Assembly: GCF_001422445.1 (NCBI RefSeq)
Contig: NZ_LMNA01000030.1
Coordinates: 454,781 to 518,780, forward strand
From: Pseudorhodoferax sp. Leaf274
GTDB taxonomy: Bacteria; Pseudomonadota; Gammaproteobacteria; Burkholderiales; Burkholderiaceae_C
Direction: 5' to 3'
DNA: 64,000 bases
Shown here: positions 11,052-23,385 of the stretch, in pieces
Layout: each line of letters starts with the position of its first letter
Position numbering within the stretch: the stretch's first letter is position 1
Notes under the pieces: model-generated
Database searches by the model: none
Told to the model about the DNA's origin: nothing
The model's input: the letters and a program-made list of their open reading frames with translations, nothing else
Position numbers and translations under genes: made by a program

Positions 11052-11096
11052 CAAGTCGTTGATTTGAAAGAATCTGCGGGCTGGCACGGCGCTTGA
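11052..11096 (+). promoter_or_regulatory. Perfect IHF-consensus site and sigma-54-type promoter, copy 2
   Basis: CAAGTCGTTGATT (11052-11064) is a perfect match to YAANNNNTTGATW. TGGCAC (11082-11087), a 5-bp spacer and TTGA (11093-11096) follow; consensus is TGGCAC-N5-TTGC. The predicted start near 11108 leaves a 20-base leader with AGGAG before the ATG at 11129. The shared GGCTGGCACGG string and order with copy 1 indicate one regulon. Confidence 0.65.
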
Positions 11097-11128
11097 GAGC
11101 CAAGAGGCACCTCAACAGGAGTCTTGCC

Positions 11129-11920
11129 ATGCGACAGCTTCAACGCCCCCTCGTCCTTGCCACCTTGCTGCTGGCTGCCGGCGCCTTCGCGCAGCCGGCG
11201 CCGACACCGCCCGGTCCGCTCGCGCCGCCACCGCCGCTGGCCGCGCCCCAGGCCGATGCGGCCATGCCCACCGTCACCGGCCGCCTGCAGCAGTGGCTGG
11301 TCAACCCCAATGGCGAGGTCGACGGCTTCCTGCTGGCCGATGGCACGCAGGTGGCTTTCGCGCCGCACCTCTCGGCCGAACTGCTGCAGACCGCCAGCCT
11401 GGGCGACACCGTGCAGGTCGGCGGCTGGCGCACGCCCGGGCTGCCGGTGCTGCGCGCCAACAGCGTGACGGCCACCGCCAGCGGCCGCAGCGTGGTGGAC
11501 ACCCCGCCCGTGCCCGGTGCGCGCGGCCCCCGCGACCCCGGCGCGCTCACCGCCATGAGCGCCAGCGGCCGCGTCACGCGCGTGCTGTACACCGACCGCG
11601 GCGACGCCAACGGCGTGCTGCTGGACGGCGGCAGCATCGTGCGCTTTCCGCCGCACCTGGGCACCATGCTGCTGCCCGGCCTGCAGGTGGGCGCCACCGT
11701 GCATGCGCGCGGCTGGGGCAGCCGCAGCGCCCAGGGCAGCGCGCTCGAGGCCACCGCCATCGGCCCGACGGCCCAGGCCATGCAGGAACTCTTCGCCGGC
11801 CCCGGCGTTGCCCCCAGGCCGCGCGGCGAACCGCGTGGCCCCCGCGGGCCGCGCGGGCCGCAGCCGCCCATGGCCGGCCAGCCGCTGCCGCCCACCCCGC
11901 CGACCCCGCCGGCCTCCTGA
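11129..11920 (+). CDS. Exported two-repeat beta-domain protein (DUF5666-like)
   Basis: A 263-residue secreted protein. The signal peptide is residues 1 to about 20 (VLATLLLAAGAFAQ), followed by a Pro/Ala linker. Two copies of a roughly 55-residue beta-rich repeat come next: VTGRLQQWLVNPNGEVDGFL...GDTVQVGGW and ASGRVTRVLYTDRGDANGVL...GATVHARGW. The tail is Pro/Arg/Gly-rich with PRGPRG steps. The pattern (G-x-V/L, N-G-x-x-L-x-D/L-G-x-x-V-x-F, G-x-x-V-x-x-x-G) resembles DUF5666/OB-like domains of unknown function. The next gene encodes the same two repeats without a signal peptide. A sigma-54-type promoter lies immediately upstream. The function is unknown. Confidence 0.8.
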   Translation: MRQLQRPLVLATLLLAAGAFAQPAPTPPGPLAPPPPLAAPQADAAMPTVTGRLQQWLVNPNGEVDGFLLADGTQVAFAPHLSAELLQTASLGDTVQVGGWRTPGLPVLRANSVTATASGRSVVDTPPVPGARGPRDPGALTAMSASGRVTRVLYTDRGDANGVLLDGGSIVRFPPHLGTMLLPGLQVGATVHARGWGSRSAQGSALEATAIGPTAQAMQELFAGPGVAPRPRGEPRGPRGPRGPQPPMAGQPLPPTPPTPPAS

Positions 11921-11979
11921 GCCGCTCCCCGTCCGCGGCCCACCACCACCCCATCCTCTTCACGCACAAGGAATCCACC

Positions 11980-12540
11980 ATGCCCCGCCCCAACCACCAA
12001 CGCCACCACGCCCCCGATGACGACGTCTGGTCCGTCGAAGGACGCTTTCAGCACCTGGTCTACAGCCCCAAGGGCGGCATCGAAGGCCTGCTGATCGACA
12101 CCGACGGCATCGCCACGCAGTTCACCGTCGATCCGCACGACGCCGCCGCCGTGGGCGCCTTGCTCGGCCTGCGCCACGGCCAGGCGCTGGCCGTCGAAGG
12201 CCGCAAGACCGGGCCCTCGCCCAAGGGCGAGGGCGCGCACGTGGTCTACCGCTTCGAGCGCCTGGCCGCCATCGACGGCCAGGAACCCGAGGCGCGCAAC
12301 GACGTGCAGGCGCACGGCAAGGTCGTGCGTTTCAACTTCGCCAAGCACGGTGCCCCCAACGGCGTGGTGCTGGACAGCGGCGACTTCGTCCACACCCGGC
12401 CCGACGGGCTGGAACGGCTGCGGCTGCAGATCGGCGACGCGGTGCGTGCGGAAGGCCCGGCACACCCGCTGGCCACCGGCAGCGGCCGCGTGATCGAGGC
12501 GCGCAGCGTCAACGGCCAGCCCCTCGCACCCGCCCACTGA
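11980..12540 (+). CDS. Two-repeat beta-domain protein, cytoplasmic paralogue of the preceding gene
   Basis: A 186-residue protein beginning with a His/Asp-rich stretch (NHQRHHAPDDD) and no signal peptide. It has two repeats: VEGRFQHLVYSPKGGIEGLL...GQALAVEGR and AHGKVVRFNFAKHGAPNGVV...GDAVRAEG. Each aligns with the repeats of the upstream exported protein, including the N-G/E-G turn and the final G-D/Q-x-V/L-x-x-x-G. The ATG follows AAGGAATCCACC, 59 bases after the previous stop, so one transcript from the sigma-54-type promoter is likely. The His-rich N-terminus could bind a metal, but that is inference. The function is unknown; the paralogue pair is the informative point. Confidence 0.8.
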   Translation: MPRPNHQRHHAPDDDVWSVEGRFQHLVYSPKGGIEGLLIDTDGIATQFTVDPHDAAAVGALLGLRHGQALAVEGRKTGPSPKGEGAHVVYRFERLAAIDGQEPEARNDVQAHGKVVRFNFAKHGAPNGVVLDSGDFVHTRPDGLERLRLQIGDAVRAEGPAHPLATGSGRVIEARSVNGQPLAPAH

Positions 12541-13838: not shown

Positions 13839-14357
13839 CTACACCGCGGGCGGCGTTCCAGCCGTGAAGGCCAGCGCCAATCCGTTCATGCAGTAGCGCA
13901 GGCCGGTCGGCTTCGGGCCATCGTCGAACACGTGGCCCAGGTGCCCGCCGCAGCGGGCGCACAGCGTCTCGTCGCGCACCATGCCGTAGCTGCGGTCGCT
14001 CTTCTTCTCCACCGCATCGGGCAGGGGCTTCCAGAAGCTCGGCCAGCCGGTGCCGCTGTCGAACTTGGTGGCCGAGGAGAACAGCGGCGCCTGGCAGCCC
14101 GCGCACGAGAACGTGCCCGCGCGCTTCTCGTCGTTGAGCGGGCTGGAGAAGGGCCGCTCGGTGCCGGCCTGGCGCAGCACCTGGTACTGCTGGGGCGTGA
14201 GCTGCGCCTTCCATTGCGCGTCGGTGCGGGTCACGGCGTAGGCCTTGGCCGCGCGGGCCACGGGCGAGAGCTGCCAGCCGGTGGCCAGCAGCGCGCCTGC
14301 GCCCAGGGCCTGCAGAATCTGTCTGCGTGCGTTCGTCAAGGCGGCTCTCCCGGTCAT
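13839..14357 (-). CDS. msrB: Exported peptide-methionine (R)-S-oxide reductase MsrB
   Basis: A 172-residue MsrB with an N-terminal export signal ([17 protein letters not shown], twin-arginine-like), so it should act outside the cytoplasm. Zinc ligands C85/C88 (CAGC) and C133/C136 (CARC) are present, as are [23 protein letters not shown] and catalytic C156 in RYCMNG (usually RYCINS). It reduces the R epimer of methionine sulfoxide in proteins, needing an electron donor such as a periplasmic thioredoxin-like protein. The start overlaps the msrA stop (ATGA). It is the last gene of the minus-strand methionine-repair operon. Confidence 0.94.
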
Positions 14358-15094
14358 GTGCCCGCGCCGACCAGCACCGGCTTGTCGCGGTACAGGGCCG
14401 GGAACACGCGGTGCAGGTTCTCGCGCTTGGGCAGGTCGTTCATGGCGATGTAAGGCTGGTTGGGGTGCAGCGTCATGTAGTCCTGGTGGTAGGCCTCGGC
14501 CGCATAGAAGGGCTTCATGGTCTCGATGGTGGTGGCGATGGGCGCGCCGAAGCTGCGCGCCTGGTCCAGCTGGGCGATGTAGGCCTTGGCCACGCGGGCC
14601 TGCTCGGCGCTCTGCGCGAAGATGGTCGAGCGGTACTGCGTGCCCACGTCCGGGCCCTGGCGGTTGCGCTGGGTCGGGTCGTGCACCACCGAGAAGTAGA
14701 TCTGCAGGATCTGGCCGAAGCCGATCTGGCGCGGGTCGTAGGTGATGCGCACGGCCTCGGCATGGCCGGTGCGGCCCGAGCCGATGGCCTCGTAGTTGGC
14801 CGTGCGCGCCTCGCCGCCGGCATAGCCGGACACGGCCTGCGTGACGCCCTTGACGTGCTGGAACACGCCCTGCACGCCCCAGAAGCAGCCGCCGGCCAGC
14901 ACGGCGGTCTCGGTGGTGGCGCCGGCCGCGGGGGTGCCGGCGTCCTGCGGCGGCGGGATCACGACGGCGCTCTCGGCGGCCATGGCGGGCAGCGCCTTCC
15001 AGGCCACGGCGCCGCCGCTCAGCAGCAGCGCCATGGCCCAGAGCGCGCCGCGGCGCGGCAGGGCGGATGGGCGGGATGGAACGGAATGGGGCAT
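14354..15094 (-). CDS. msrA: Exported peptide-methionine (S)-S-oxide reductase MsrA
   Basis: A 246-residue MsrA. Residues 1-40 form a long signal sequence ([26 protein letters not shown]) and the domain starts near residue 60. The active-site motif GGCFWG puts the nucleophilic Cys at position 70. Further family segments are [32 protein letters not shown] and [12 protein letters not shown]. No C-terminal resolving Cys pair is obvious, so recycling may use an external thiol partner. It is exported like its neighbour MsrB, so together they can repair both sulfoxide epimers in envelope proteins. It lies 97 bases downstream of the MXKDX-repeat gene in the same direction. Confidence 0.94.
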
Positions 15095-15191
15095 GGGAAC
15101 CTCGTTGGCTTGTGGGGCTGCGTGCCGCAGCGGTTGCGGCCGGGGCCGGGCGACATGGTGCGCCGGCCCGGCAGATTGCGCAGGCCTGGGG

Positions 15192-15458
15192 CTATTGCTT
15201 CATCGCGTCCTTCTTCATGCCGTCCTTGGCCATGGAATCCTTGGCCATGCCGTCCTTTTTCATGCCGTCCTTGGCCATGGCGTCCTTGCCCATGCCGTCC
15301 TTCTTCATGCCATCTTTCTTCATGCCGTCCTTGGCCATGGAATCCTTGGCCATGCCGTCCTTGGCCATGCCGTCCTTCTTCATCTCGTCGGCGGCCATGG
15401 CCGACACGGAGCCGATGGCCAGGAAAGCGGCCAGCACGGTGGTGGTGAGCTTGTTCAT
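15192..15458 (-). CDS. Methionine-rich pentapeptide MXKDX repeat protein (MrpX-like)
   Basis: An 88-residue secreted protein. The signal peptide (MNKLTTTVLAAFLAIGSVSAMA) is followed by 12 tandem M-x-K-D-x pentapeptides (x mostly A/K, then G/S). The mature part of about 65 residues contains 13 Met and no Cys or aromatic residues. It is predicted to be disordered and highly charged. It sits between genes for an MsrP-like oxidoreductase and exported MsrA/MsrB. Established parallel: in Azospira suillum the methionine-rich MrpX is oxidised by hypochlorite in the periplasm and re-reduced by a YedY-type reductase. By analogy this protein would be a reusable oxidant sink. Its role here is inferred from composition and context. 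Confidence 0.88.
   Translation of the reverse strand: MNKLTTTVLAAFLAIGSVSAMAADEMKKDGMAKDGMAKDSMAKDGMKKDGMKKDGMGKDAMAKDGMKKDGMAKDSMAKDGMKKDAMKQ
15195..15390 (-). repeat. 15-bp tandem repeats encoding MXKDX units
   Basis: About a dozen imperfect 15-bp units of the form ATGGCCAAGGACGGC (minus strand) are arranged head to tail. Repeats this similar can expand or shrink by slippage or recombination, changing the number of methionines. Confidence 0.9.
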
Positions 15459-15556
15459 TGCAGAGTCCTCGGGGTGGGTTGGGTGGGGTGGGGGATGGAG
15501 AGCCGGTTCGTGCCGAACGCGGCCCGACGTGTCGCAGGCGCCGGGGCGTTCGTGCC

Positions 15557-16348
15557 TCAGCTGCCTCCGAACCAGTTGTAGCCCTGGTCTTCCCAGTAGC
15601 CGCCAGGGTTCGTATTGGTCACGAACATCGCCTGGATGTGTTTGGGGTTCTTGTAGCCCAGCTTGGTGGGCATGCGCAGCTTCACCGGGAAGCCGTACCG
15701 CGGGGGCAGCGGCTCGCCGTCGTAGGTCAAGGCCAGCAGCGTCTGCGGGTGCAGCGCGGTGGGCATGTCGATGCTGGTGTAGTAGTCGTCGGCGCATTGG
15801 AAGCCGACGTACCTGGCGCTGGTGTCGGCGCCCACACGCGCCAGGAAGTCGGAGAAGCGCACGCCGCCCCATTTGCCGATGGCGCTCCAGCCTTCCACGC
15901 AGATGTGGCGCGTGACCTGGTCGTGCTGCTGCATGGCGCGCAGCGCGGCCAGCGTCCACTGGCGCTTGTCGGCCACCAGGCCGGTCACTTCCAGCCGCCA
16001 GGCGGCGCCATCCACCTGCCGGACCTCGTCTTCGCCGTAGTAGGCGTTGAACGGGAAGGGCCGCGTGATCATCGACTCCGGGTAGGTCGGGGCCAGTCGC
16101 GCGGGGTCGAAGATGAGGCCCTGGACCGTGTCGTTGAACTGCGAGATGCGCGTGAGCGCGGCCTCCACGCCGGCGTTGTCGCTGATGCTGCAACCCGTGA
16201 GCATGGACAGGCCGCCGAGTGTCAGCGAGCGCTGCAGGAAGGCGCGGCGGGCCGGCTGTTCGACGCGGCGGCCGATCAACTGCCGGGCTTCGGCCAGCGC
16301 GGCGCCGGCGTCGATGCCGGGGAGCGGGGGGCGTCGGAAGATCTTCAT
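15557..16348 (-). CDS. MsrP/YedY-like periplasmic molybdopterin oxidoreductase
   Basis: A 263-residue sulfite-oxidase-fold protein. A twin-arginine signal (ARRAFLQRSLTLGG, residues 33-46) ends in a lipobox-like LTGC at C53, so it may be a Tat-exported lipoprotein. The molybdenum ligand is predicted as C150 in RHICVEGWSAIGKW, matching RxxCVExWS of YedY; DDYYTSIDM, YGFPVKLRMP, LGYKNPKHI and NPGGYWEDQGYNWFGG are further cofactor and fold segments. The start overlaps the stop of the cytochrome b gene (ATGA), and that cytochrome probably delivers quinol electrons. It resembles the YedY1 type linked to methionine-rich peptides more than E. coli MsrP, which lacks this C-terminal ending. Confidence 0.88.
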   Translation of the reverse strand: MKIFRRPPLPGIDAGAALAEARQLIGRRVEQPARRAFLQRSLTLGGLSMLTGCSISDNAGVEAALTRISQFNDTVQGLIFDPARLAPTYPESMITRPFPFNAYYGEDEVRQVDGAAWRLEVTGLVADKRQWTLAALRAMQQHDQVTRHICVEGWSAIGKWGGVRFSDFLARVGADTSARYVGFQCADDYYTSIDMPTALHPQTLLALTYDGEPLPPRYGFPVKLRMPTKLGYKNPKHIQAMFVTNTNPGGYWEDQGYNWFGGS

Positions 16349-16998
16349 GCGGCCTCCTTGGCAGCGTGGGCCGTGCGGTCGGTGCGGCCGGCGCGGCCAC
16401 TCAGCATGGGCAGCAGCGTGCGCGGCACCAGCGCCACCATGGCCAGGTGCACCGCCACGAAACCGACCAGGCCGGCCATGGCGACGAAGTGGATGCGGCG
16501 CGCGGCCTCGTAGCCGCCCAGCAGCTCGCGCAGCAGCCCGAACTGCACCGACTTCCACAGCACCAGGCCCGAGAGCACCAGCACCGCGGTGTCGAGCATC
16601 ACGAACAGGTAGGCCGCCCGCTGCACGCTGTTGTAGTGGCGCGGGTCGGCGTGGGCCAGCGCGCCGCGCAGCGCGGCCCGGGCGTCGTGCCAGATGCCGC
16701 GCAGCGTGAGCGGGAAGAACCTGCGCGCCAGCCGGCCGCTGGCGATGTTCAGCAGCAGGTAGACCAGCCCGTTGGCCGCCAGCAGCCACATGGCCGCGAA
16801 GTGCCACTGCAGCGCGCCGCCGAGCCAGCCGCCCAGCGTCAGCGCCTTGGGGAATTCGAACGGAAAGAACGGCGCCGCGTTGTAGATGCGCCAGCCGCTG
16901 GCCACCAGCACCAGCACGGCCAGTGCGTTGAGCCAGTGGCAGGCGCGCAGCCAGCCGGGGTGGATCGGCGTCGCGGTGGGTGGATGGGCGTTCGGCAT
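16345..16998 (-). CDS. Cytochrome b561-type membrane subunit, electron donor to the MsrP-like enzyme
   Basis: A 217-residue, four-helix haem protein. H21 (RACHWLNAL), H66 (LQWHFAAMWLL) and two late His in RIHFVAMAGLVGFVAVHL are the likely ligands of two b haems. The pattern fits the Ni,Fe-hydrogenase/cytochrome b561 family rather than classical MsrQ, as in the YedZ1 partner of YedY1 systems. It should take electrons from quinol and pass them to the molybdoenzyme. It is the first gene of the operon and is divergent from the response regulator gene, with a 98-bp gap holding the candidate operator at 17035-17059. Confidence 0.88.
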   Translation of the reverse strand: MPNAHPPTATPIHPGWLRACHWLNALAVLVLVASGWRIYNAAPFFPFEFPKALTLGGWLGGALQWHFAAMWLLAANGLVYLLLNIASGRLARRFFPLTLRGIWHDARAALRGALAHADPRHYNSVQRAAYLFVMLDTAVLVLSGLVLWKSVQFGLLRELLGGYEAARRIHFVAMAGLVGFVAVHLAMVALVPRTLLPMLSGRAGRTDRTAHAAKEAA

Positions 16999-17034
16999 GG
17001 GGCGCAGTGTGGACCGAAGCCCCTCGCCGTTTCA

Positions 17035-17059
17035 TCACGGAATGTTCAATGAATCGTGA
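17035..17059. promoter_or_regulatory. Spaced dyad between cytochrome b and response regulator genes
   Basis: TCACG (17035-17039) and CGTGA (17055-17059) flank an AT-rich 15-bp centre that itself contains two TTCA steps, in a region otherwise very GC-rich. It lies where a divergent operator would be expected. It may bind the adjacent OmpR-type regulator, but it overlaps the alternative start codon at 17049 and is weak as a motif. Confidence 0.3.
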
Positions 17060-17096
17060 CAACTCGGCGGCCGGCTTCGCCCCACAATCCGGCCCC

Positions 17097-17843
17097 ATGG
17101 ACACCCCCAAGCGCGTACTGATCGTCGAGGACGATGCCCACATCGCCGAGCTGATGCGCATGCACCTGCACGACGAGGGCTACGCCGTGACGCACGCCGC
17201 CGACGGCCACGCCGGCATGCAGGCGCTGGCGCGCGGCCCCTGGGACGCGCTGGTGCTCGACCTCATGCTGCCCGGCGTGGACGGGCTGGAGATCTGCCGC
17301 GCCGCCCGCGCGGACCACAGGGTGGCGCGCTACACGCCCATCATCATCACCAGCGCCCGCTCCAGCGAGGTGCACCGCATCCTGGGCCTGGAACTGGGCG
17401 CCGACGACTACCTGGCCAAGCCCTTCTCGGTGCTGGAGCTGGTGGCGCGCGTGCGCGCGCTGCTGCGGCGCAGCGAGGCCATGGCGCGCAACGCGCGCGT
17501 GGAGGCCGGCCGGCTGGAGGTCGGCAAGCTGGGCCTGGACCCGGTCACGCGCGAGGTGCAGGTGGACGGCAAGCCCATCGAGCTGACGCCGCGCGAGTTC
17601 GACCTGCTGCACTTCTTCGCGCGGCATCCGGGCCGCGTGTTCTCGCGGCTGGAGTTGCTCAACAGGGTCTGGGGCTACCAGCACGACGGCTACGAGCACA
17701 CCGTCAACACGCACATCAACCGGCTGCGCACCAAGGTCGAGGCCGACCCGGCGCAGCCGCGCCGCATCCTCACCGTGTGGGGCCGGGGCTACCGGCTGGT
17801 GGCGGGCGAGCCCGGCGAGCACGACGGCGGGGACGCGGCATGA
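17097..17843 (+). CDS. OmpR/PhoB-family response regulator
   Basis: A 248-residue regulator. The receiver has D12/D13, phosphoacceptor D55 (ALVLDLMLPGVDG), the conserved Ser/Thr in IIITSAR and Lys in LAKPFS. The winged-helix C-terminus reads IELTPREFDLLHFFARHPGRVFSRLELLNRVWGY, then HTVNTHINRLRTKVE and TVWGRGYRL. MDTPKR at 17097 is the preferred start because the receiver begins at once; an in-frame ATG at 17049 would add 16 residues. The gene overlaps the kinase gene (ATGA) and is divergent from the methionine-repair operon, which is its most likely target. Known YedY1/MrpX systems use a SigF/NrsF pair instead. Confidence 0.93.
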   Translation: MDTPKRVLIVEDDAHIAELMRMHLHDEGYAVTHAADGHAGMQALARGPWDALVLDLMLPGVDGLEICRAARADHRVARYTPIIITSARSSEVHRILGLELGADDYLAKPFSVLELVARVRALLRRSEAMARNARVEAGRLEVGKLGLDPVTREVQVDGKPIELTPREFDLLHFFARHPGRVFSRLELLNRVWGYQHDGYEHTVNTHINRLRTKVEADPAQPRRILTVWGRGYRLVAGEPGEHDGGDAA

Positions 17844-19324
17844 AGTCCCCCGGTGCCTGGACCCTGTCGCGCCGGCTGTCGCTGGTGTTCGCCGTGCTGC
17901 TGCTGGCCTGCTCGGGCGTGTCGGCCTGGCTGCAGATGGCGTCCAGCGCGCGGCACGAGCGCGAGGTGACGCAGCGCCTGTCGCTGGGCCTGGCCGCGCA
18001 CATCGCGGGCAACGCCGAGCTGATGCAGCGCGGCGGGCTCAACACCGCCGCGGTGCGCGACCTGTTCGACAAGCTCATGGCCGTGAACCCGAGCGTGGAG
18101 GTCTACCTGCTCGACCCGCAGGGCCGCATCGTGGCGCAGGCCGCGCCGCCCGGCCACCTGAAGCTGGAGCGCGTGGACCTGGCGCCCGTGCGCAGCCTGC
18201 TGGCGGGCGCACCGCTGCCGGTGCTGGGCGACGACCCGCGCGGCATGGGCCCCAAGGTGTTCAGTGCGGCGCCGCTGCAGGTCGACGGCCGCGATGCGGG
18301 CTATGTCTACGTGGTGCTGTCGGGCGAGGACCGCGCCGCGATCAGCGCGCGGCTGGCCGCGGGCTCGGCGCTGCGCACCACGCTGTGGTCCATGGCCGTG
18401 GTGGCCTTGCTCGGGCTGGTGGCGGGCCTGGTGGCGTTCCGCTTCATCACGCGGCCGCTGCGCCAGCTGACCGGCGCGGTGCAGGAATTCGAGCGCGACG
18501 GCATCGCCGCGCTGGGCCATGCGCCCGCGCTGGACGCGGTGGCGCGCCGCACCGACGAGATCGGCGTGCTGGGCCAGGCCTTCGTGCAGATGGCGCAGCG
18601 CATCGACGCGCAATGGAAGGCCTTGACGGCGCAGGACCAGCAGCGGCGCGAGCTGTTCGCCAACATCTCGCACGACCTGCGCACGCCGCTGACCTCGCTG
18701 CACGGCTACCTGGAGACGCTGCGCATGAAGGCCGACCTGCTGGACGCCGGCGAACGCGCGCGCTACCTGGACATCGCGCTGGGCCAGAGCCGCAAGGTCG
18801 GCCGGCTGGCGCAGGAGCTGTTCGAACTGGCGCGGCTCGAATACGGCGTGGTGCAGCCCGAGAAGGAACGCTTCGCGCTGGCCGACCTGGTGCAGGACGT
18901 GTTCCAGAAGTTCGAGCTGGCGGCCGAGGCCCGGCGCCAGCGGCTGGTGGCCGACATCGCGCCCGGCCTGCCGGTGGTGCATGCCGACCTCGGCATGATC
19001 GAGCGCGTGCTGACCAACCTGCTGGACAACGCCATCCGCCACACGCCCGAGGGCGGCGAGATCGCGGTGCGGCTGCTGCATGGCGCGGGCGGGGCGCAGG
19101 GGGGCGTGGGCGGCGTGCAGGTGGAAGTGGCCGACACCGGCCCCGGCATCCCGCGCGAGCTGCAGCCGGTGCTCTTCACGCGGCCGGCCTTCGCCGGGAG
19201 CGGCGCGCGCGGCGGCGGCCTGGGGCTCATGATCGTGCGGCGCATCCTGCAGCTGCACGGCAGCGACATCCGGCTGGAGCCGCGCGCCGGGGCGGGGGCG
19301 GTGTTCCGCTTCGGGCTGGAGTAA
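17840..19324 (+). CDS. Membrane sensor histidine kinase
   Basis: A 494-residue kinase. Helices at about 13-31 and 182-201 enclose a 150-residue periplasmic sensor with a PAS/Cache-like look (VEVYLLDPQGRIVAQAAPPG). The HAMP domain starts at FITRPLRQLTGAVQEFE. HisKA has H278 in LFANISHDLRTPLTSLHGYLE; the HATPase N box is LTNLLDNAIRHTPEGG, G1 ADTGPGIP and G2 GGGLGLMIV. The start overlaps the regulator stop by ATGA. An oxidant or envelope-damage signal is plausible from the divergent Msr operon but is not shown by sequence. Confidence 0.93.
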   Translation: MKSPGAWTLSRRLSLVFAVLLLACSGVSAWLQMASSARHEREVTQRLSLGLAAHIAGNAELMQRGGLNTAAVRDLFDKLMAVNPSVEVYLLDPQGRIVAQAAPPGHLKLERVDLAPVRSLLAGAPLPVLGDDPRGMGPKVFSAAPLQVDGRDAGYVYVVLSGEDRAAISARLAAGSALRTTLWSMAVVALLGLVAGLVAFRFITRPLRQLTGAVQEFERDGIAALGHAPALDAVARRTDEIGVLGQAFVQMAQRIDAQWKALTAQDQQRRELFANISHDLRTPLTSLHGYLETLRMKADLLDAGERARYLDIALGQSRKVGRLAQELFELARLEYGVVQPEKERFALADLVQDVFQKFELAAEARRQRLVADIAPGLPVVHADLGMIERVLTNLLDNAIRHTPEGGEIAVRLLHGAGGAQGGVGGVQVEVADTGPGIPRELQPVLFTRPAFAGSGARGGGLGLMIVRRILQLHGSDIRLEPRAGAGAVFRFGLE

Positions 19325-19409
19325 GAGCGGCTGGAGCAGGCGCAGCTGGAGGCGGGGCGCCGCGCCTGTGGCAGTATGCGGCGCGACCCACGCCCCCCGG
19401 AGCCCACCC

Positions 19410-20312
19410 TTGGACCTGCGCGATCTCCAGTACTTTGAAGTCATGGCCGAGCTGGAACACATGGGCCGTGCCGCCGAGCGGCTGCACCGCACCCAGCCGG
19501 CCCTGACCAGCTGCGTGCGCCGGCTCGAGGAGGCCTGCGGTGCCGCGCTGTTCGAGAAGACCGGCCGCGGCATCCGGCTCACCGCGGCCGGCCACGCGCT
19601 GCGGCGCTGGGCCCAGCGCACCCGGCTGGACGTGGAGAGCGCGCGGCGCGAGATCGGCGACATAGGCCGCGGCCTGGTCGGCCACGTCAAGCTGGGCATC
19701 GTGCCGACGGCCGCGCAGTTCCTGCTGCCGCCGGTGGCGCGCGACCTGATCGCCGAAGCCCCCGATGTGACGCTGCGCACCCACGTGGCGCTGGTCGACG
19801 CGCTGACGCCGCTGCTGCGCGCTGGCGACATCGACCTCATGGTGGGCACCGAGGGCGCGCGCGAGCCCGGTTTCACGTCGCAGCTGCTGGCCGAGGACAC
19901 CATCGTCGTGGCGGCCCACGCGGGCCACCCCTTGTTCGACAAGCCCCGCCCGGCGCTCAAGGACCTGGCGCCCTGGCGCTGGGTGCTGCAGACGCCGGGC
20001 GCCCCCACGCGCGACTGGCTGGACCAGACCTTCGACCGCCACAACCTGCCGCGCCCCGTGGTGCAGGTGGAGTCCACCATGCTGCTGATGCTGCCCACGC
20101 TGATCGGCGAGACCGGGCTGCTGAGCTTCATCTCGCGGCTGCACCTGCAGGCCGGCCGCTCGGGCGCCGGGCTGCGCGAGGTGGCGATCCCGGCGGCCAC
20201 CATGCGCCGCCGCCTGGTGGTCACCTGGCGCGACAGCGGCTATGTCTCGCCCGCCGCGCAGCGGCTGATCGCGCTGCTGGCCCGGCATGCCGGGCACGAG
20301 AACCTGGGCTGA
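19410..20312 (+). CDS. LysR-family transcriptional regulator
   Basis: A 300-residue LysR protein. The winged helix-turn-helix occupies residues 1-60 (LRDLQYFEVMAELEHMGRAAERLHRTQPALTSCVRRLEEACGAALFEKTGRGIRLTAAG). The effector-binding domain follows (VKLGIVPTAAQFLLPP, LRAGDIDLMVG). The best start is TTG at 19410, which places DLRDLQYF at the canonical N-terminus; earlier in-frame codons add nonsense residues. It precedes the catabolic cluster of Bug receptors and lactonases in the same direction and probably controls it in response to a pathway intermediate. Confidence 0.92.
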   Translation: MDLRDLQYFEVMAELEHMGRAAERLHRTQPALTSCVRRLEEACGAALFEKTGRGIRLTAAGHALRRWAQRTRLDVESARREIGDIGRGLVGHVKLGIVPTAAQFLLPPVARDLIAEAPDVTLRTHVALVDALTPLLRAGDIDLMVGTEGAREPGFTSQLLAEDTIVVAAHAGHPLFDKPRPALKDLAPWRWVLQTPGAPTRDWLDQTFDRHNLPRPVVQVESTMLLMLPTLIGETGLLSFISRLHLQAGRSGAGLREVAIPAATMRRRLVVTWRDSGYVSPAAQRLIALLARHAGHENLG

Positions 20313-20355: not shown

Positions 20356-20448
20356 GACCGTTAGGGATCGCGCACCAATACTTGCCGCCATCGAACGCCT
20401 GCCGCGCAGTGGTTGCGCCAAGGCAGTTCGGCCATCGGAGACAAGTCC

Positions 20449-21456
20449 ATGCACGCCATCCACCGGCCCGGCGCCACGCGCCGCCTCGTCCTCGTCGCCT
20501 CGGCGATCGCCACCATCGCCACCGGCCTCGCCGGCACCGCCGCACTGGCGCAGCCGGCGTACCCGTCGCGGCCCATCCGCCTGGTCGTGCCGTTCCCGGC
20601 CGGCGGCGGCACCGACCTGATCGCCCGCGAAGTGGCCAACAAGGTGGCCACCAGCAACAACTGGTCCATCATCATCGACAACAAGCCGGGCTCCGGTGGC
20701 AACCTGGGCGTGGACGCCGCCGCCAAGGCTCCGGCCGACGGCTACACGCTGGTGCTGGGCCAGACCAGCAACCTGGCGATCAACCCCACGCTGTACCCCA
20801 AGCTGCCCTACAAGCCCGAGAAGGACCTGGACGCCGTCGGCCTGGTCGCCCAGGCCCCGCTGGTCGTCGTGGTGGCGGCCGATTCGCCCTACAAGACGCT
20901 GGCCGACGTGGTCGCCGCGGCCAAGGCCAAACCTGAATCGCTGAACTACGCCAGCTCGGGCAACGGCACGGTGGCCCACCTGGCGGCCGAGCTGCTGCAG
21001 AAGGCCGCCGGCGTGAAGTTCACGCACGTGCCCTACAAGGGCGCGGCCCAGGGCTCGACCGACCTGATCGGCGGCCAGATCCAGATGTATGTCTCGTCCG
21101 TGCCCACGCTGATCGGCTACATCAAGAACGGCAAGATGCGCGCGCTGGCCGTGACCTCGCAGCAGCGCACGGCCGACCTGCCGGGCGTGCCCACGGTGGC
21201 CGAGTCGGGCTACAAGGGCTTCGAAGCCGTCACCTGGTTCGGCGTGGCCGGCCCCGACGGCCTGCCCAAGGACGTGATCGCCAAGCTGAACACCGCCTTC
21301 AACAAGGCGCTGCAGGACCCCGAGGTCAAGTCCAAGCTGGCCGCCCAGGGCGCCGATGTGCGCTCCAGCACGCCGGAGCAGTTCGCCGCGCTGGTGCGCA
21401 GCGAGATCGTGCGCTGGGGCAAGGTCGTGCAGGAATCCGGCGCCAAGGTCGACTGA
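20449..21456 (+). CDS. Bug-family substrate-binding protein (cluster receptor 1)
   Basis: A 335-residue receptor. A long signal (RRLVLVASAIATIATGLAGTAALAQ) precedes AYPSRPIRLVVPFPAGGGTDLIARE, IDNKPGSGGNLG, APADGYTLVLGQTSN, YASSGNGTVAHLA and HVPYKGAAQGSTDLIGGQI, all Bug hallmarks. GGAGACAAGTCC precedes the chosen ATG; an in-frame codon at 20413 is less likely. It is the first structural gene after LysR. The clustering with LigI-like lactonases suggests a di- or tricarboxylate ligand. No TctAB genes are present. Confidence 0.92.
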   Translation: MHAIHRPGATRRLVLVASAIATIATGLAGTAALAQPAYPSRPIRLVVPFPAGGGTDLIAREVANKVATSNNWSIIIDNKPGSGGNLGVDAAAKAPADGYTLVLGQTSNLAINPTLYPKLPYKPEKDLDAVGLVAQAPLVVVVAADSPYKTLADVVAAAKAKPESLNYASSGNGTVAHLAAELLQKAAGVKFTHVPYKGAAQGSTDLIGGQIQMYVSSVPTLIGYIKNGKMRALAVTSQQRTADLPGVPTVAESGYKGFEAVTWFGVAGPDGLPKDVIAKLNTAFNKALQDPEVKSKLAAQGADVRSSTPEQFAALVRSEIVRWGKVVQESGAKVD

Positions 21457-21484
21457 GCACAGCCCCCATCCGCCAGAGCGCGAG

Positions 21485-22390
21485 ATGCCAACCCAACACG
21501 AAGAGACGGTGTCCGCACCGTTCTCGGCGGGGCAGGGCCGTGCCCGCGTGCCGGTGCCGCCGCTGGCCTGCGACTGCCATGTGCACGTCTACGACAGCCG
21601 TTTCGCGGCCGTCCCCGGCGCGCGGCTGACCCCGCCCGACGCCAGCGTGGCCGACTACCGCGCGCTGCAGCGGCGGACCGGCACGCAGCGCGTGGTGTTC
21701 GTCACTCCCTCGACCTACGGCACCGACAACCGGCCATTGCTGCAGGCGCTGGACGCATTCGGCGCGCTGGCCCGCGGCGTAGCGGTCATCGATGCGCAGA
21801 CCGACGAGGCTGCGCTGCAGGCCCTGCATGCGGCCGGCGTGCGCGGTGCGCGGCTGAACCTGTCGCTGGGCGTCACGCACGACGCCGCGCAACTCGAGGC
21901 GCTGGCCGCGCGCATCGCGCCGCTGGGCTGGCACCTGCAGCTGCTGGCGCCGCCCGACCTGCTGGCAGCACTGGGCGAACGCCTGATGCGCCTGCCCGTG
22001 CCGCTGGTGCTGGACCACTTCGGCCGCATCGCCCCGGCGCTGGCCGGCCGGCACCCCGCGCATGCGCTGGTGCTGCGCCTGCTGGCGCAGGGCCGCACCT
22101 GGCTCAAGCTGTCCGGCGGCTACATCGTGAGCCCCTCGGGCCGGGTGGACGACTCTGGCGTGGCGGCGCTGGCGCGCGGCTACCTGCGCGCCGCGCCCGA
22201 ACGCATGGTCTGGGGCAGCGACTGGCCCCACGCCTCGGCCTCGGCCGGCCACCAGCCCATGCCCGACGACGCGCAGCAGATGGCGCTGCTCGCGCAATGG
22301 ACCGACGGCCCCGCGCTGCTGCAGCGCGTGCTGGTCGACAACCCCGCCGAGCTCTACGGCTTCGGCACCTCTGCACAAGGAACCCCATGA
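21485..22390 (+). CDS. Amidohydrolase of the 2-pyrone-4,6-dicarboxylate lactonase (LigI)-like family, copy 1
   Basis: A 301-residue TIM-barrel amidohydrolase. HVH in LACDCHVHVYDSRF after strand 1, His in VPLVLDHFGRI and Asp in MVWGSDWPH are the active-site residues of the LigI group (COG3618-type), which opens lactone rings without a recruited metal or with one. VVFVTPSTYGTDNRPLLQAL and LKLSGGYI are family segments. It overlaps the next Bug gene by ATGA. A close paralogue lies at 27030-27914 in the same cluster. Likely reaction: hydrolysis of a pyrone or lactone dicarboxylate; the exact substrate is unproven. Confidence 0.85.
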   Translation: MPTQHEETVSAPFSAGQGRARVPVPPLACDCHVHVYDSRFAAVPGARLTPPDASVADYRALQRRTGTQRVVFVTPSTYGTDNRPLLQALDAFGALARGVAVIDAQTDEAALQALHAAGVRGARLNLSLGVTHDAAQLEALAARIAPLGWHLQLLAPPDLLAALGERLMRLPVPLVLDHFGRIAPALAGRHPAHALVLRLLAQGRTWLKLSGGYIVSPSGRVDDSGVAALARGYLRAAPERMVWGSDWPHASASAGHQPMPDDAQQMALLAQWTDGPALLQRVLVDNPAELYGFGTSAQGTP

Positions 22391-23385
22391 ACGAGACACC
22401 CCGCACCCTGGGCCGCCGCAGCCTGCTCGGCGCACTCGCCACGCCGCTGCTGGCCGCCGCCTGGCCGGCCCTGGCCCAGGGCCACTGGCCGGCCGGCAAG
22501 ACGATCACCTGGGTCGTGCCCTATCCGGCGGGCGGCAGCACCGACATCCTGGGCCGCGCCATCGCCGTGCGGCTCGGGCCGGCGCTGGGCGCCACGGTCA
22601 TCGTGGACAACAAGGCCGGCGCCACCGGCACCATCGGCTCGGCCTTCGTGGCGCGCGCCCCGGCCGACGGCTTCACGCTGCTGGGCACTTCGATCGGCCC
22701 GCAGGCCATCGTGCCGCACCTGATGCCGCGCATGCCCTACGACGCCGTGACCGCCTTCGCGCCCGTGACCCTGGTCGGCACCATTCCCCATCTGCTCGTG
22801 ACCGCGGCCAGCCGGCCCTGGAACAGCGTGGCCGAGCTGCTGGCGCAGGCCAAGGCCAAGCCCGGCCAGCTGTCCTTCGCCTCGGGCGGCAACGGCACCA
22901 TCCTGCAGATGCAGGGCGAGCTGCTGCGCCTGCAGGCCGGCGTGCAGATGACGCATGTGCCCTACAAGGGCGACACGCCGGCCGTGCAGGACGTGCTGGC
23001 CGGCCATGCCGACTGCATGTTCGCGCCGGTCGCGGCCGCCTTGCCGCATGTGCAGGGCGGCAAGCTCAAGGCGCTGGCCGTCACCTCTGCGGTGCGGCAG
23101 AAAGCCCTGCCGGATGTGCCCACCATGGGCCAGGCCGGCTTCAAGGACTTCGTCGTCGAGCAATGGCAGGCGGTCTACGCGCCAGCCGGCACGCCGGCCG
23201 CCGTGGTGCAGCGCCTGCACGGCGAGATCGTGCGCATCCTGAAGGATCCCGAAGTCCTGGCCATGGCCGACAAGCTCGGCGTGACCCTGGTCGGCAGCAC
23301 GCCGCAGCAGCTGGCCGACACGCAGAAAGCCGACCTCGCCACCTGGGGCAAGGTCATCCAGCAGGCCGGCATCAAGGCCGACTGA
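22387..23385 (+). CDS. Bug-family substrate-binding protein (cluster receptor 2)
   Basis: A 332-residue receptor with a twin-arginine-like signal (LGRRSLLGALATPLLAAAWPALAQ), then ITWVVPYPAGGSTDILGRA, VDNKAGATGTIG, APADGFTLLGTS, FASGGNGTILQM and HVPYKGDTPAVQDVLAGHAD. In the last motif an Ala-Gly-His-Ala-Asp replaces the usual Gly-Gly-Gln, the only notable divergence. The start overlaps the lactonase stop (ATGA), so the two are translated together. It differs enough from the other cluster receptors to suggest a distinct ligand. Confidence 0.92.
   Translation: MNETPRTLGRRSLLGALATPLLAAAWPALAQGHWPAGKTITWVVPYPAGGSTDILGRAIAVRLGPALGATVIVDNKAGATGTIGSAFVARAPADGFTLLGTSIGPQAIVPHLMPRMPYDAVTAFAPVTLVGTIPHLLVTAASRPWNSVAELLAQAKAKPGQLSFASGGNGTILQMQGELLRLQAGVQMTHVPYKGDTPAVQDVLAGHADCMFAPVAAALPHVQGGKLKALAVTSAVRQKALPDVPTMGQAGFKDFVVEQWQAVYAPAGTPAAVVQRLHGEIVRILKDPEVLAMADKLGVTLVGSTPQQLADTQKADLATWGKVIQQAGIKAD

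Follow-up and report, generated by a model that had tools for sequence, protein, structure and literature searches.

A candidate periplasmic methionine-oxidation defence locus adjoining an OrhKR-type two-component system in Pseudorhodoferax sp. Leaf274

Gene content of the locus

Five minus-strand genes and two divergent plus-strand genes, which together suggest a defence against methionine oxidation in the periplasm, were analysed in a 64,000-nucleotide stretch of Pseudorhodoferax sp. Leaf274 DNA (contig NZ_LMNA01000030.1, positions 454,781 to 518,780), hereafter the window. The minus-strand genes are ordered cytb, msrP, mxkdx, msrA and msrB in the direction of transcription. They encode a YedZ1-like membrane subunit of cytochrome b561 type (217 amino acids, 16345..16998; PF01292, 91.7 bits), an MsrP/YedY1-like molybdopterin oxidoreductase (263 amino acids, 15557..16348; PF00174, Oxidored_molyb, 115.6 bits), a secreted protein of MrpX type with 12 pentapeptide MXKDX repeats (88 amino acids, 15192..15458; TIGR02953), an exported MsrA (246 amino acids, 14354..15094; PF01625, PMSR/MsrA, 192.7 bits) and an exported MsrB with a signal resembling those of the twin-arginine translocation (Tat) pathway (172 amino acids, 13839..14357; PF01641, SelR/MsrB, 169.2 bits). 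Facing them on the plus strand are an OmpR/PhoB-family response regulator (17097..17843; PF00072, Response_reg, and PF00486, Trans_reg_C) and a sensor histidine kinase with HAMP domain (17840..19324; PF00512, HisKA; PF02518, HATPase_c; PF00672, HAMP). Overlaps of 4 bp were found at cytb/msrP and at msrA/msrB, and mxkdx is flanked by gaps of 98 and 97 bp. The seven genes had been placed and typed in the same way in an initial annotation, and Pfam and NCBIfam matches as well as the coordinates bear this out.

Comparisons were made with 80 related loci, the best of at least 576 candidates ranked by closeness to the window MsrP-like protein; because of this choice, the tallies obtained from them overstate linkage for the wider family. 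The MsrP-like protein begins with the Tat motif RRAFLQ, followed by a hydrophobic stretch and a lipobox-like L-T-G-C. Indeed, RRxF[LF] was present in all 81 related rows (80 loci, locus L034 being counted twice), with LTGC as the later motif in 46, LSGC in 34 and LGGC in one, which suggests a Tat-exported lipoprotein. A putative molybdenum ligand, Cys150, lies within CVEGW, and the best solved relative is 1xdq. The initial annotation had paired an MsrP-like enzyme with a cytochrome b, and the PF00174 and PF01292 matches agree with this, whereas the MsrP equivalog cut-off was missed (81.5 vs 207 bits) and the cytochrome, with PF01292 as its sole Pfam match at E <= 0.001, is not of the MsrQ family. 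A canonical MsrPQ system of the Escherichia coli type was thus ruled out, E. coli MsrQ belonging to a membrane family other than that of the window cytochrome. A fused periplasmic MsrAB of the PilB/Haemophilus type was likewise ruled out, since msrA and msrB are separate genes in the window. What the window does contain is the make-up of a YedY1-YedZ1-MrpX unit, namely an exported protein of MXKDX type together with an adjacent PF00174 molybdoenzyme and b561-type cytochrome.

The MXKDX protein scored 96.9 bits against TIGR02953 (cut-off 41) and was the only match to this model in its genome, and a search of 14 control genomes returned no match (0/14). From residue 24, before which the signal cleavage site was read by eye, it comprises 65 residues, 13 of them Met, and 12 M-x-K-D-x units, so that the repeat and Met counts of the initial annotation held. 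At the DNA level, the repeats form 12.4 tandem copies of a 15-bp unit. Repeat number varied across the 76 related loci with such a gene (median 11, range 4-16). Among 812 units, Lys occupied position 3 in 804 and Asp position 4 in 788, positions 2 and 5 being variable; these counts measure variation inside the pattern M-x-[KR]-[DEN]-x only, because the units were picked with it. The MXKDX protein of a Rahnella locus (L092, 4807-5088) has Cys and His among its repeats and might bind metal.

The window MsrA contains a single Cys, the catalytic Cys70 in GGCFWG, and MsrB contains five, that is, two CxxC pairs and the catalytic Cys156, and reads SGTGWP. The other MsrB of the genome reads AGCGWP, and in the other MsrA the catalytic Cys is followed by three more. 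No Cys followed the catalytic one in 40 of 43 MsrA rows linked to the related loci, and linked MsrB showed SGTGWPS and five Cys in 18 of 19 rows, the nineteenth being a fragment. A Tat-like RR motif was observed in the window MsrB and most of the relatives printed, and a plain hydrophobic signal in most MsrA. Judging by the positions that we take to be those of resolving cysteines, MsrA and MsrB of the window appear to be of the 1-Cys type, as in most linked relatives, their activity being likewise predicted from sequence. A 1-Cys Msr enzyme leaves a sulfenic acid that some periplasmic partner must reduce. In a tree of 52 MsrA sequences, 45 exported-type rows formed one clade (100/100) apart from seven housekeeping rows, and the window sequence grouped with Pseudorhodoferax and Xenophilus; a motif filter had dropped all three SigF loci with downstream msrA, 6 of 11 stand-alone rows and others, and L071 and L081 were left out of this tree. 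These two are SigF/NrsF loci carrying msrB and msrA with export-like N-termini, in which MsrA has retained three Cys behind its catalytic residue (GCFWC), unlike the 1-Cys type.

Operator palindrome and gene neighbourhood in relatives

The 98-bp region between the regulator gene and cytb contains TCACGGAATGTTCAATGAATCGTGA at 17035-17059, a 25-bp palindrome with outer arms TCACG/CGTGA that reads TCACGATTCATTGAACATTCCGTGA on the operon strand. This putative operator, TCACG-N15-CGTGA, fits the published OrhR site TCACA-N15-TGTGA, as given in the available part of PMC8550376. In the form TCAC-N17-GTGA, the pattern occurs once in the 64-kb window, and arose in 17 of 20000 shuffles of the 98-bp region, which preserve base composition only. 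A scan of the whole genome with up to two mismatches (<=2) returned one match, the window site, and a reversed control returned none. Applied to 18 genomes, a strict pattern gave exactly one match in 13, and the control was negative in all 18; the genomes with zero matches were four chosen for an MsrP locus without such a regulator, and that of L004, whose site deviates. No promoter consensus was found in a scan of the locus (0, the same as in shuffles), and a terminator scan gave two terminator-like sites, close to the mean of the shuffles, each of them on the plus strand and none predicted on the operon strand.

Among the related loci with regulator, the palindrome lies directly upstream of cytb in exact form in 38 of 39 and with one mismatch in the remaining one; in L004, L029, L032, L038 and L040 it was located 28 bp upstream of the cytb frame. 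Another 38 loci have cytb and no full regulator was found in them. Ten of these carry the palindrome, namely nine from Pseudomonas and L048, where a regulator gene seems to be broken off by the contig end, and it was not found in the scanned stretch of the other 28. The 48 sites comprise 26 distinct sequences; of their 25 columns, 14 were invariant, eight of these being fixed by the choice of pattern. A Rahnella plasmid of like layout has TCACATTTTATTTAACTTTGCGTGA between regulator and cytb, with a regulator 69% and a kinase 59% identical to those of the window. Thus, both in the window and, in exact form, in 38 of the 39 loci, a two-component system adjoins the operon with TCACN-N15-NGTGA in between, the arrangement expected of an OrhKR-type system. 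HprSR membership was ruled out, the HprR equivalog score being 161 bits against a cut-off of 353. Two loci stand apart in their layout. In Bordetella genomosp. 2 (L034, 3307-13573), the cytb-msrP-mxkdx-msrB-msrA block occurs twice in tandem with a palindrome before each copy, possibly as an assembly artefact, and in Achromobacter pulmonis LMG 26696 (L027) the same five genes were found with neither regulator and kinase nor palindrome within the 20.8-kb locus, the rest of that genome not having been searched.

Alignment of 44 kinases revealed an invariant Met80, as well as Cys24, in the first membrane span, in 41 sequences, His54 in 42 and Met62 in 40. HprS is reported, in the available part of PMC13367049, to be responsive to methionine oxidation, and one may guess that the window kinase responds in a similar manner.

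Conservation of the neighbourhood was high for the core genes, with cytb near the MsrP-like gene in 77 and mxkdx in 76 of the 80 related loci. Within 4.5 kb, msrA (at least 200 bits) was found in 39, msrB (at least 150 bits) in 16 and either of them in 41. Regulator and kinase were present in 38 loci and SigF in 13. Considering the 60 loci whose flanks reach 5 kb or more on each side, 32 had the two-component system (msrA in 21, msrB in 10), seven had SigF (msrA in 3, msrB in 1) and 21 had neither regulator within 4.5 kb (msrA in 6, msrB in 4). In these tallies L034 was counted as having neither regulator, its regulator adjoining its other copy. The two types of regulator were together in none of the 60. 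As for gene order, msrA-msrB follows mxkdx in the window, L004 and L005, and msrB-msrA follows it in 8 of 12 Achromobacter loci (three others end at a contig edge and L066 has none) and in the Bordetella loci L034 and L063. Most Variovorax and both Acidovorax loci have msrA alone behind mxkdx, msrB-msrA lies upstream in L044 and L049, and a divergent msrA lies upstream in L057, L065 and L069. A gene order unique to one strain, for which the initial annotation had proposed a neighbourhood survey, is ruled out by these similarly arranged relatives.

A survey of the family, based on an even draw of 70 genomes from 69 genera, detected a close MsrP-like gene (at least 67% identity) in 5 genomes and an MXKDX protein above cut-off in 4, all four lying ~80-125 bp from a close MsrP-like gene. 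The fifth genome with a close MsrP-like gene (G006) had no MXKDX match, and G043 had a match below cut-off elsewhere. Some MsrA was present in all 70 genomes. The 13 MsrA loci scoring at least 200 bits encode a hydrophobic N-terminal stretch and no Cys after the catalytic one, and 17 lower-scoring MsrA loci encode three to five Cys.

The nine Pseudomonas loci with palindrome also contain cytb, msrP and mxkdx, with no regulator adjoining; a tenth, L054, has neither MXKDX nor palindrome. Eight of the nine were taken further, L077 being left out. Each of these eight genomes contains a single match to the window kinase at E <1e-40, with 59-62% identity from residue 7 or 8 to 493, and this match is on a different contig from the palindrome of the MsrP locus. 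In all eight, regulator and kinase face exported msrB and msrA, and TCAC-N17-GTGA is found between regulator and msrB as well as at the MXKDX operon. The regulator-msrB sites deviate in the middle of the palindrome and were missed by the strict pattern applied to the 18 genomes; shuffling each regulator-msrB region reproduced the pattern in 35-47 of 20000 cases. Because palindrome and kinase tie the MXKDX operon to unlinked msrB and msrA, the two repair arms look like one regulon. One Pseudomonas regulator thus appears to own two operons, a quinol-fed arm with MXKDX and a thiol-fed arm, which in the window form a single locus. Since they belong to one genus, the eight genomes do not count as eight independent events.

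In five of the eight Pseudomonas genomes, msrB and msrA are separated by a gene in which a CcdA-like membrane part is fused to a thioredoxin-like domain and a Thioredoxin_10 domain. Matches to this fusion were also found after mxkdx, several Burkholderiales loci being among them. They cover approximately the first 420 of its 591 residues in L003, L010, L011 and L035, the first 135 at a contig end in L015 and the thioredoxin part alone in L061, and in L018 the membrane part is placed between mxkdx and msrA. Elsewhere in the Pseudorhodoferax genome, one DsbD_TM and one DsbC_N match were obtained, in a scan that could miss a homologue of the fusion, because the Pseudomonas fusion itself scores 23.8 against the DsbD_TM cut-off of 27.1.

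Interpretation and alternative explanations

The locus probably serves to defend the periplasm against methionine oxidation, under the control of an OrhKR-type two-component system. According to this model, an oxidant such as hypochlorous acid (HOCl) or peroxide would be sensed in the envelope, and the regulator would bind the palindrome at 17035-17059 and switch on cytb-msrP-mxkdx-msrA-msrB, presumably as a single transcript. The MXKDX protein would absorb oxidant as methionine sulfoxide. This protein, along with other envelope proteins, could then be reduced by two routes, one leading from quinol via the cytochrome b to the MsrP-like enzyme, the other from thiols, delivered by a DsbD-type system elsewhere in the cell, to the exported 1-Cys MsrA and MsrB. 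The genes and their conservation, the shared palindrome, the 1-Cys character and the placement of MsrA/MsrB with such a regulator are observed; from these we infer the signal, the binding, the enzyme activities, the substrate and the thiol donor, and likewise scavenging of oxidant and recharging of MXKDX by both routes. A more specific proposal is held tentatively, with chances clearly below even: one two-component regulon would build a dedicated periplasmic methionine redox buffer, in which quinol feeds the MsrP-like enzyme and cytoplasmic thiols feed 1-Cys MsrA/MsrB (in some Pseudomonas and Burkholderiales by way of a CcdA-thioredoxin fusion dedicated to this purpose), both recharging the same MXKDX protein, with the arms apart in Pseudomonas and fused in the window.

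The observation of the locus made in the initial annotation is confirmed and its interpretation is partly supported. In favour of the two-route sink and repair that it proposed are the conserved gene set, the frequent inclusion of MsrA/MsrB, and the two-component system next to msrB/msrA with a shared palindrome in Pseudomonas, whose split loci support the idea of two electron routes independently of the window gene order. Nevertheless, several findings weigh against this interpretation. No thiol donor is encoded by the five genes of the window, and none was found in the scanned flanking genes. Within 4.5 kb, msrA is absent from 11 of the 32 two-component loci with full flanks. Among the 43 linked MsrA rows, three depart from the 1-Cys type: L047 by one additional Cys behind the catalytic residue, and L071 and L081, which are also distant in score (126-128 bits), by three each. 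In the family survey, an exported 1-Cys MsrA occurs more often than the MsrP locus; MsrA of at least 200 bits was found in 13 genomes, and beside the MsrP-like gene in just two. Besides, kinship with OrhKR rests on gene set, operator and the Rahnella locus, because the genes of uropathogenic E. coli (UPEC) are known by description.

Some of these data would also fit a different division of labour, in which MsrA and MsrB carry out general envelope repair and merely share the regulator, MXKDX being served by the MsrP-like enzyme alone, so that parallel arms take the place of a single recharge cycle. To this explanation we give nearly even chances. Of the 13 family genomes in which an exported-type MsrA was found, 11 have no close MsrP-like gene near it; no MsrA/MsrB appears in the available descriptions of the Brucella and UPEC units; and the available part of PMC9404787 reports that periplasmic MsrAB of Haemophilus influenzae repairs envelope proteins. 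The recurrent position of msrA/msrB right behind mxkdx in Comamonadaceae and Alcaligenaceae, and beside a like regulator in Pseudomonas, speaks for a closer connection, but is compatible with parallel arms too.

It is unlikely that MXKDX serves mainly as a metal (copper) buffer whose methionine ligands are protected by the Msr enzymes. Met-rich periplasmic proteins can bind Cu(I), but a Met at every fifth residue, with neither His nor Cys, is not known as a classical copper motif, the Rahnella protein with Cys and His among its repeats being nearer to this idea. Furthermore, none of the seven locus genes matches metal pump or copper oxidase families, and the regulator remains below the cut-off for heavy-metal regulators (171.6 vs 279.2 bits), even though the available text of PMC3511200 describes a Caulobacter sigma-F that controls a YedY gene and responds to metal stress, and periplasmic CusF repair is the subject of PMC9302797, as far as its available part shows. 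Less probable still, and indeed very doubtful, is that the MsrP-like/cytochrome b pair has no connection with protein methionine and works as an oxidoreductase of sulfite or of another sulfoxide/N-oxide, in which case an annotation of sulfur metabolism would be right. The fold family is common to sulfite oxidases and the MsrP cut-off was missed, but the SorA model gave 52.2 bits, far under its cut-off of 600, and the near-constant linkage to MXKDX and frequent linkage to MsrA/MsrB speak against such a role.

Beyond the locus, the next neighbours in the window are MFS and LysR genes, according to a Pfam scan of the flanks. The LysR regulator gene (19368-20312) is adjacent to two TctC-type receptors (20413-21456 and 22297-23385, plus strand) that flank an amidohydrolase (21356-22390). 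On the other side, a proline-rich secreted protein and an adjacent small protein (11093-11920 and the end of frame 11293-12540, plus strand) have no Pfam match, and each seems, by eye, to contain a similar module of ~70 residues in duplicate.

Relation to known systems

The closest descriptions concern Met-rich periplasmic proteins encoded with a YedY-type enzyme. According to papers citing the 2015 work of Melnyk, MrpX of Azospira suillum is said to be a sink for HOCl. This Met-rich periplasmic protein reportedly accompanies YedY1 and YedZ1, as in the window, but under SigF/NrsF, a sigma/anti-sigma pair of the extracytoplasmic function (ECF) type, and not under a two-component system. SigF/NrsF was not found beside the window genes, where regulator and kinase stand instead, and the remainder of the genome was not searched for it. 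The initial annotation had pointed out this replacement; its presence is supported by the Pfam matches, whereas its novelty is not, because UPEC OrhKR already controls such an operon. According to the available part of PMC8550376, OrhR binds and controls a peroxide-responsive operon (c3566-c3567-c3568) for a cytochrome b, an MsrP-like enzyme and a small Met-rich protein next to OrhK/OrhR, as in the window. Unlike the window genes, this operon is described without MsrA/MsrB and continues into a haemolysin operon. Brucella bcrXQP, induced by HOCl, also combines an MXKDX protein with an MsrP/MsrQ-like pair, but under the ECF sigma factor BcrS; the term msrA has 0 occurrences in the text of PMC8315932, on whose available part this account is based.

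Exported thiol-based Msr enzymes fed across the membrane are likewise known. In H. influenzae, as far as described in the accessible text of PMC9404787, this is a single fused MsrAB with its own CcdA and thioredoxin genes, unlike the separate genes of the window. The Bradyrhizobium EcfF/OsrA regulon comprises three Msr genes, one of them predicted to be periplasmic, for which a thioredoxin/DsbD-like pair was proposed as donor (PMC3420878, available part); it differs in its ECF sigma control, and the terms MXKDX and cytochrome b have 0 occurrences there. E. coli MsrPQ/HprSR resembles the window in the two-component control of a periplasmic methionine sulfoxide reductase and its membrane subunit (PMC13367049, available part). 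For the YedY gene under Caulobacter sigma-F, no change of msrA was seen in the portion of PMC3511200 available.

Expression data from Achromobacter may bear on the same genes. A putative sulfite oxidase was up-regulated >1500-fold in a late isolate from cystic fibrosis, second in level behind one hypothetical protein, together with MsrA (756-fold), MsrB (201-fold) and kinases labelled KdpD II-V (9-128 fold), according to the available part of PMC5488654. One may guess that this generic KdpD label hides a kinase of the window type. Twelve Achromobacter loci among the relatives carry cytb-msrP-mxkdx; because none is labelled Achromobacter xylosoxidans, the match to this transcriptome is one that we infer, and the surge of sulfite oxidase, MsrA and MsrB may be oxidant defence and not sulfur metabolism.

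In a literature search covering few subscription journals, no publication joining MXKDX, MsrP-like enzyme, MsrA and MsrB in one regulon was found among the papers listed, as far as their texts were available. In the accessible parts of the surveyed papers, a quinol-fed enzyme is the sole repair partner of Met-rich periplasmic sinks against bleach-like oxidants. If the regulon also includes the thiol-fed pair, a periplasmic sink would be rechargeable from two pools and could be found by a known operator. The core unit is already known from Azospira, Brucella and UPEC, and so is the exchange of the sigma factor for a two-component system; on this evidence, what is new is the joining of exported 1-Cys MsrA/MsrB to the MXKDX/YedY1 unit and the palindrome that ties both arms across unlinked loci.

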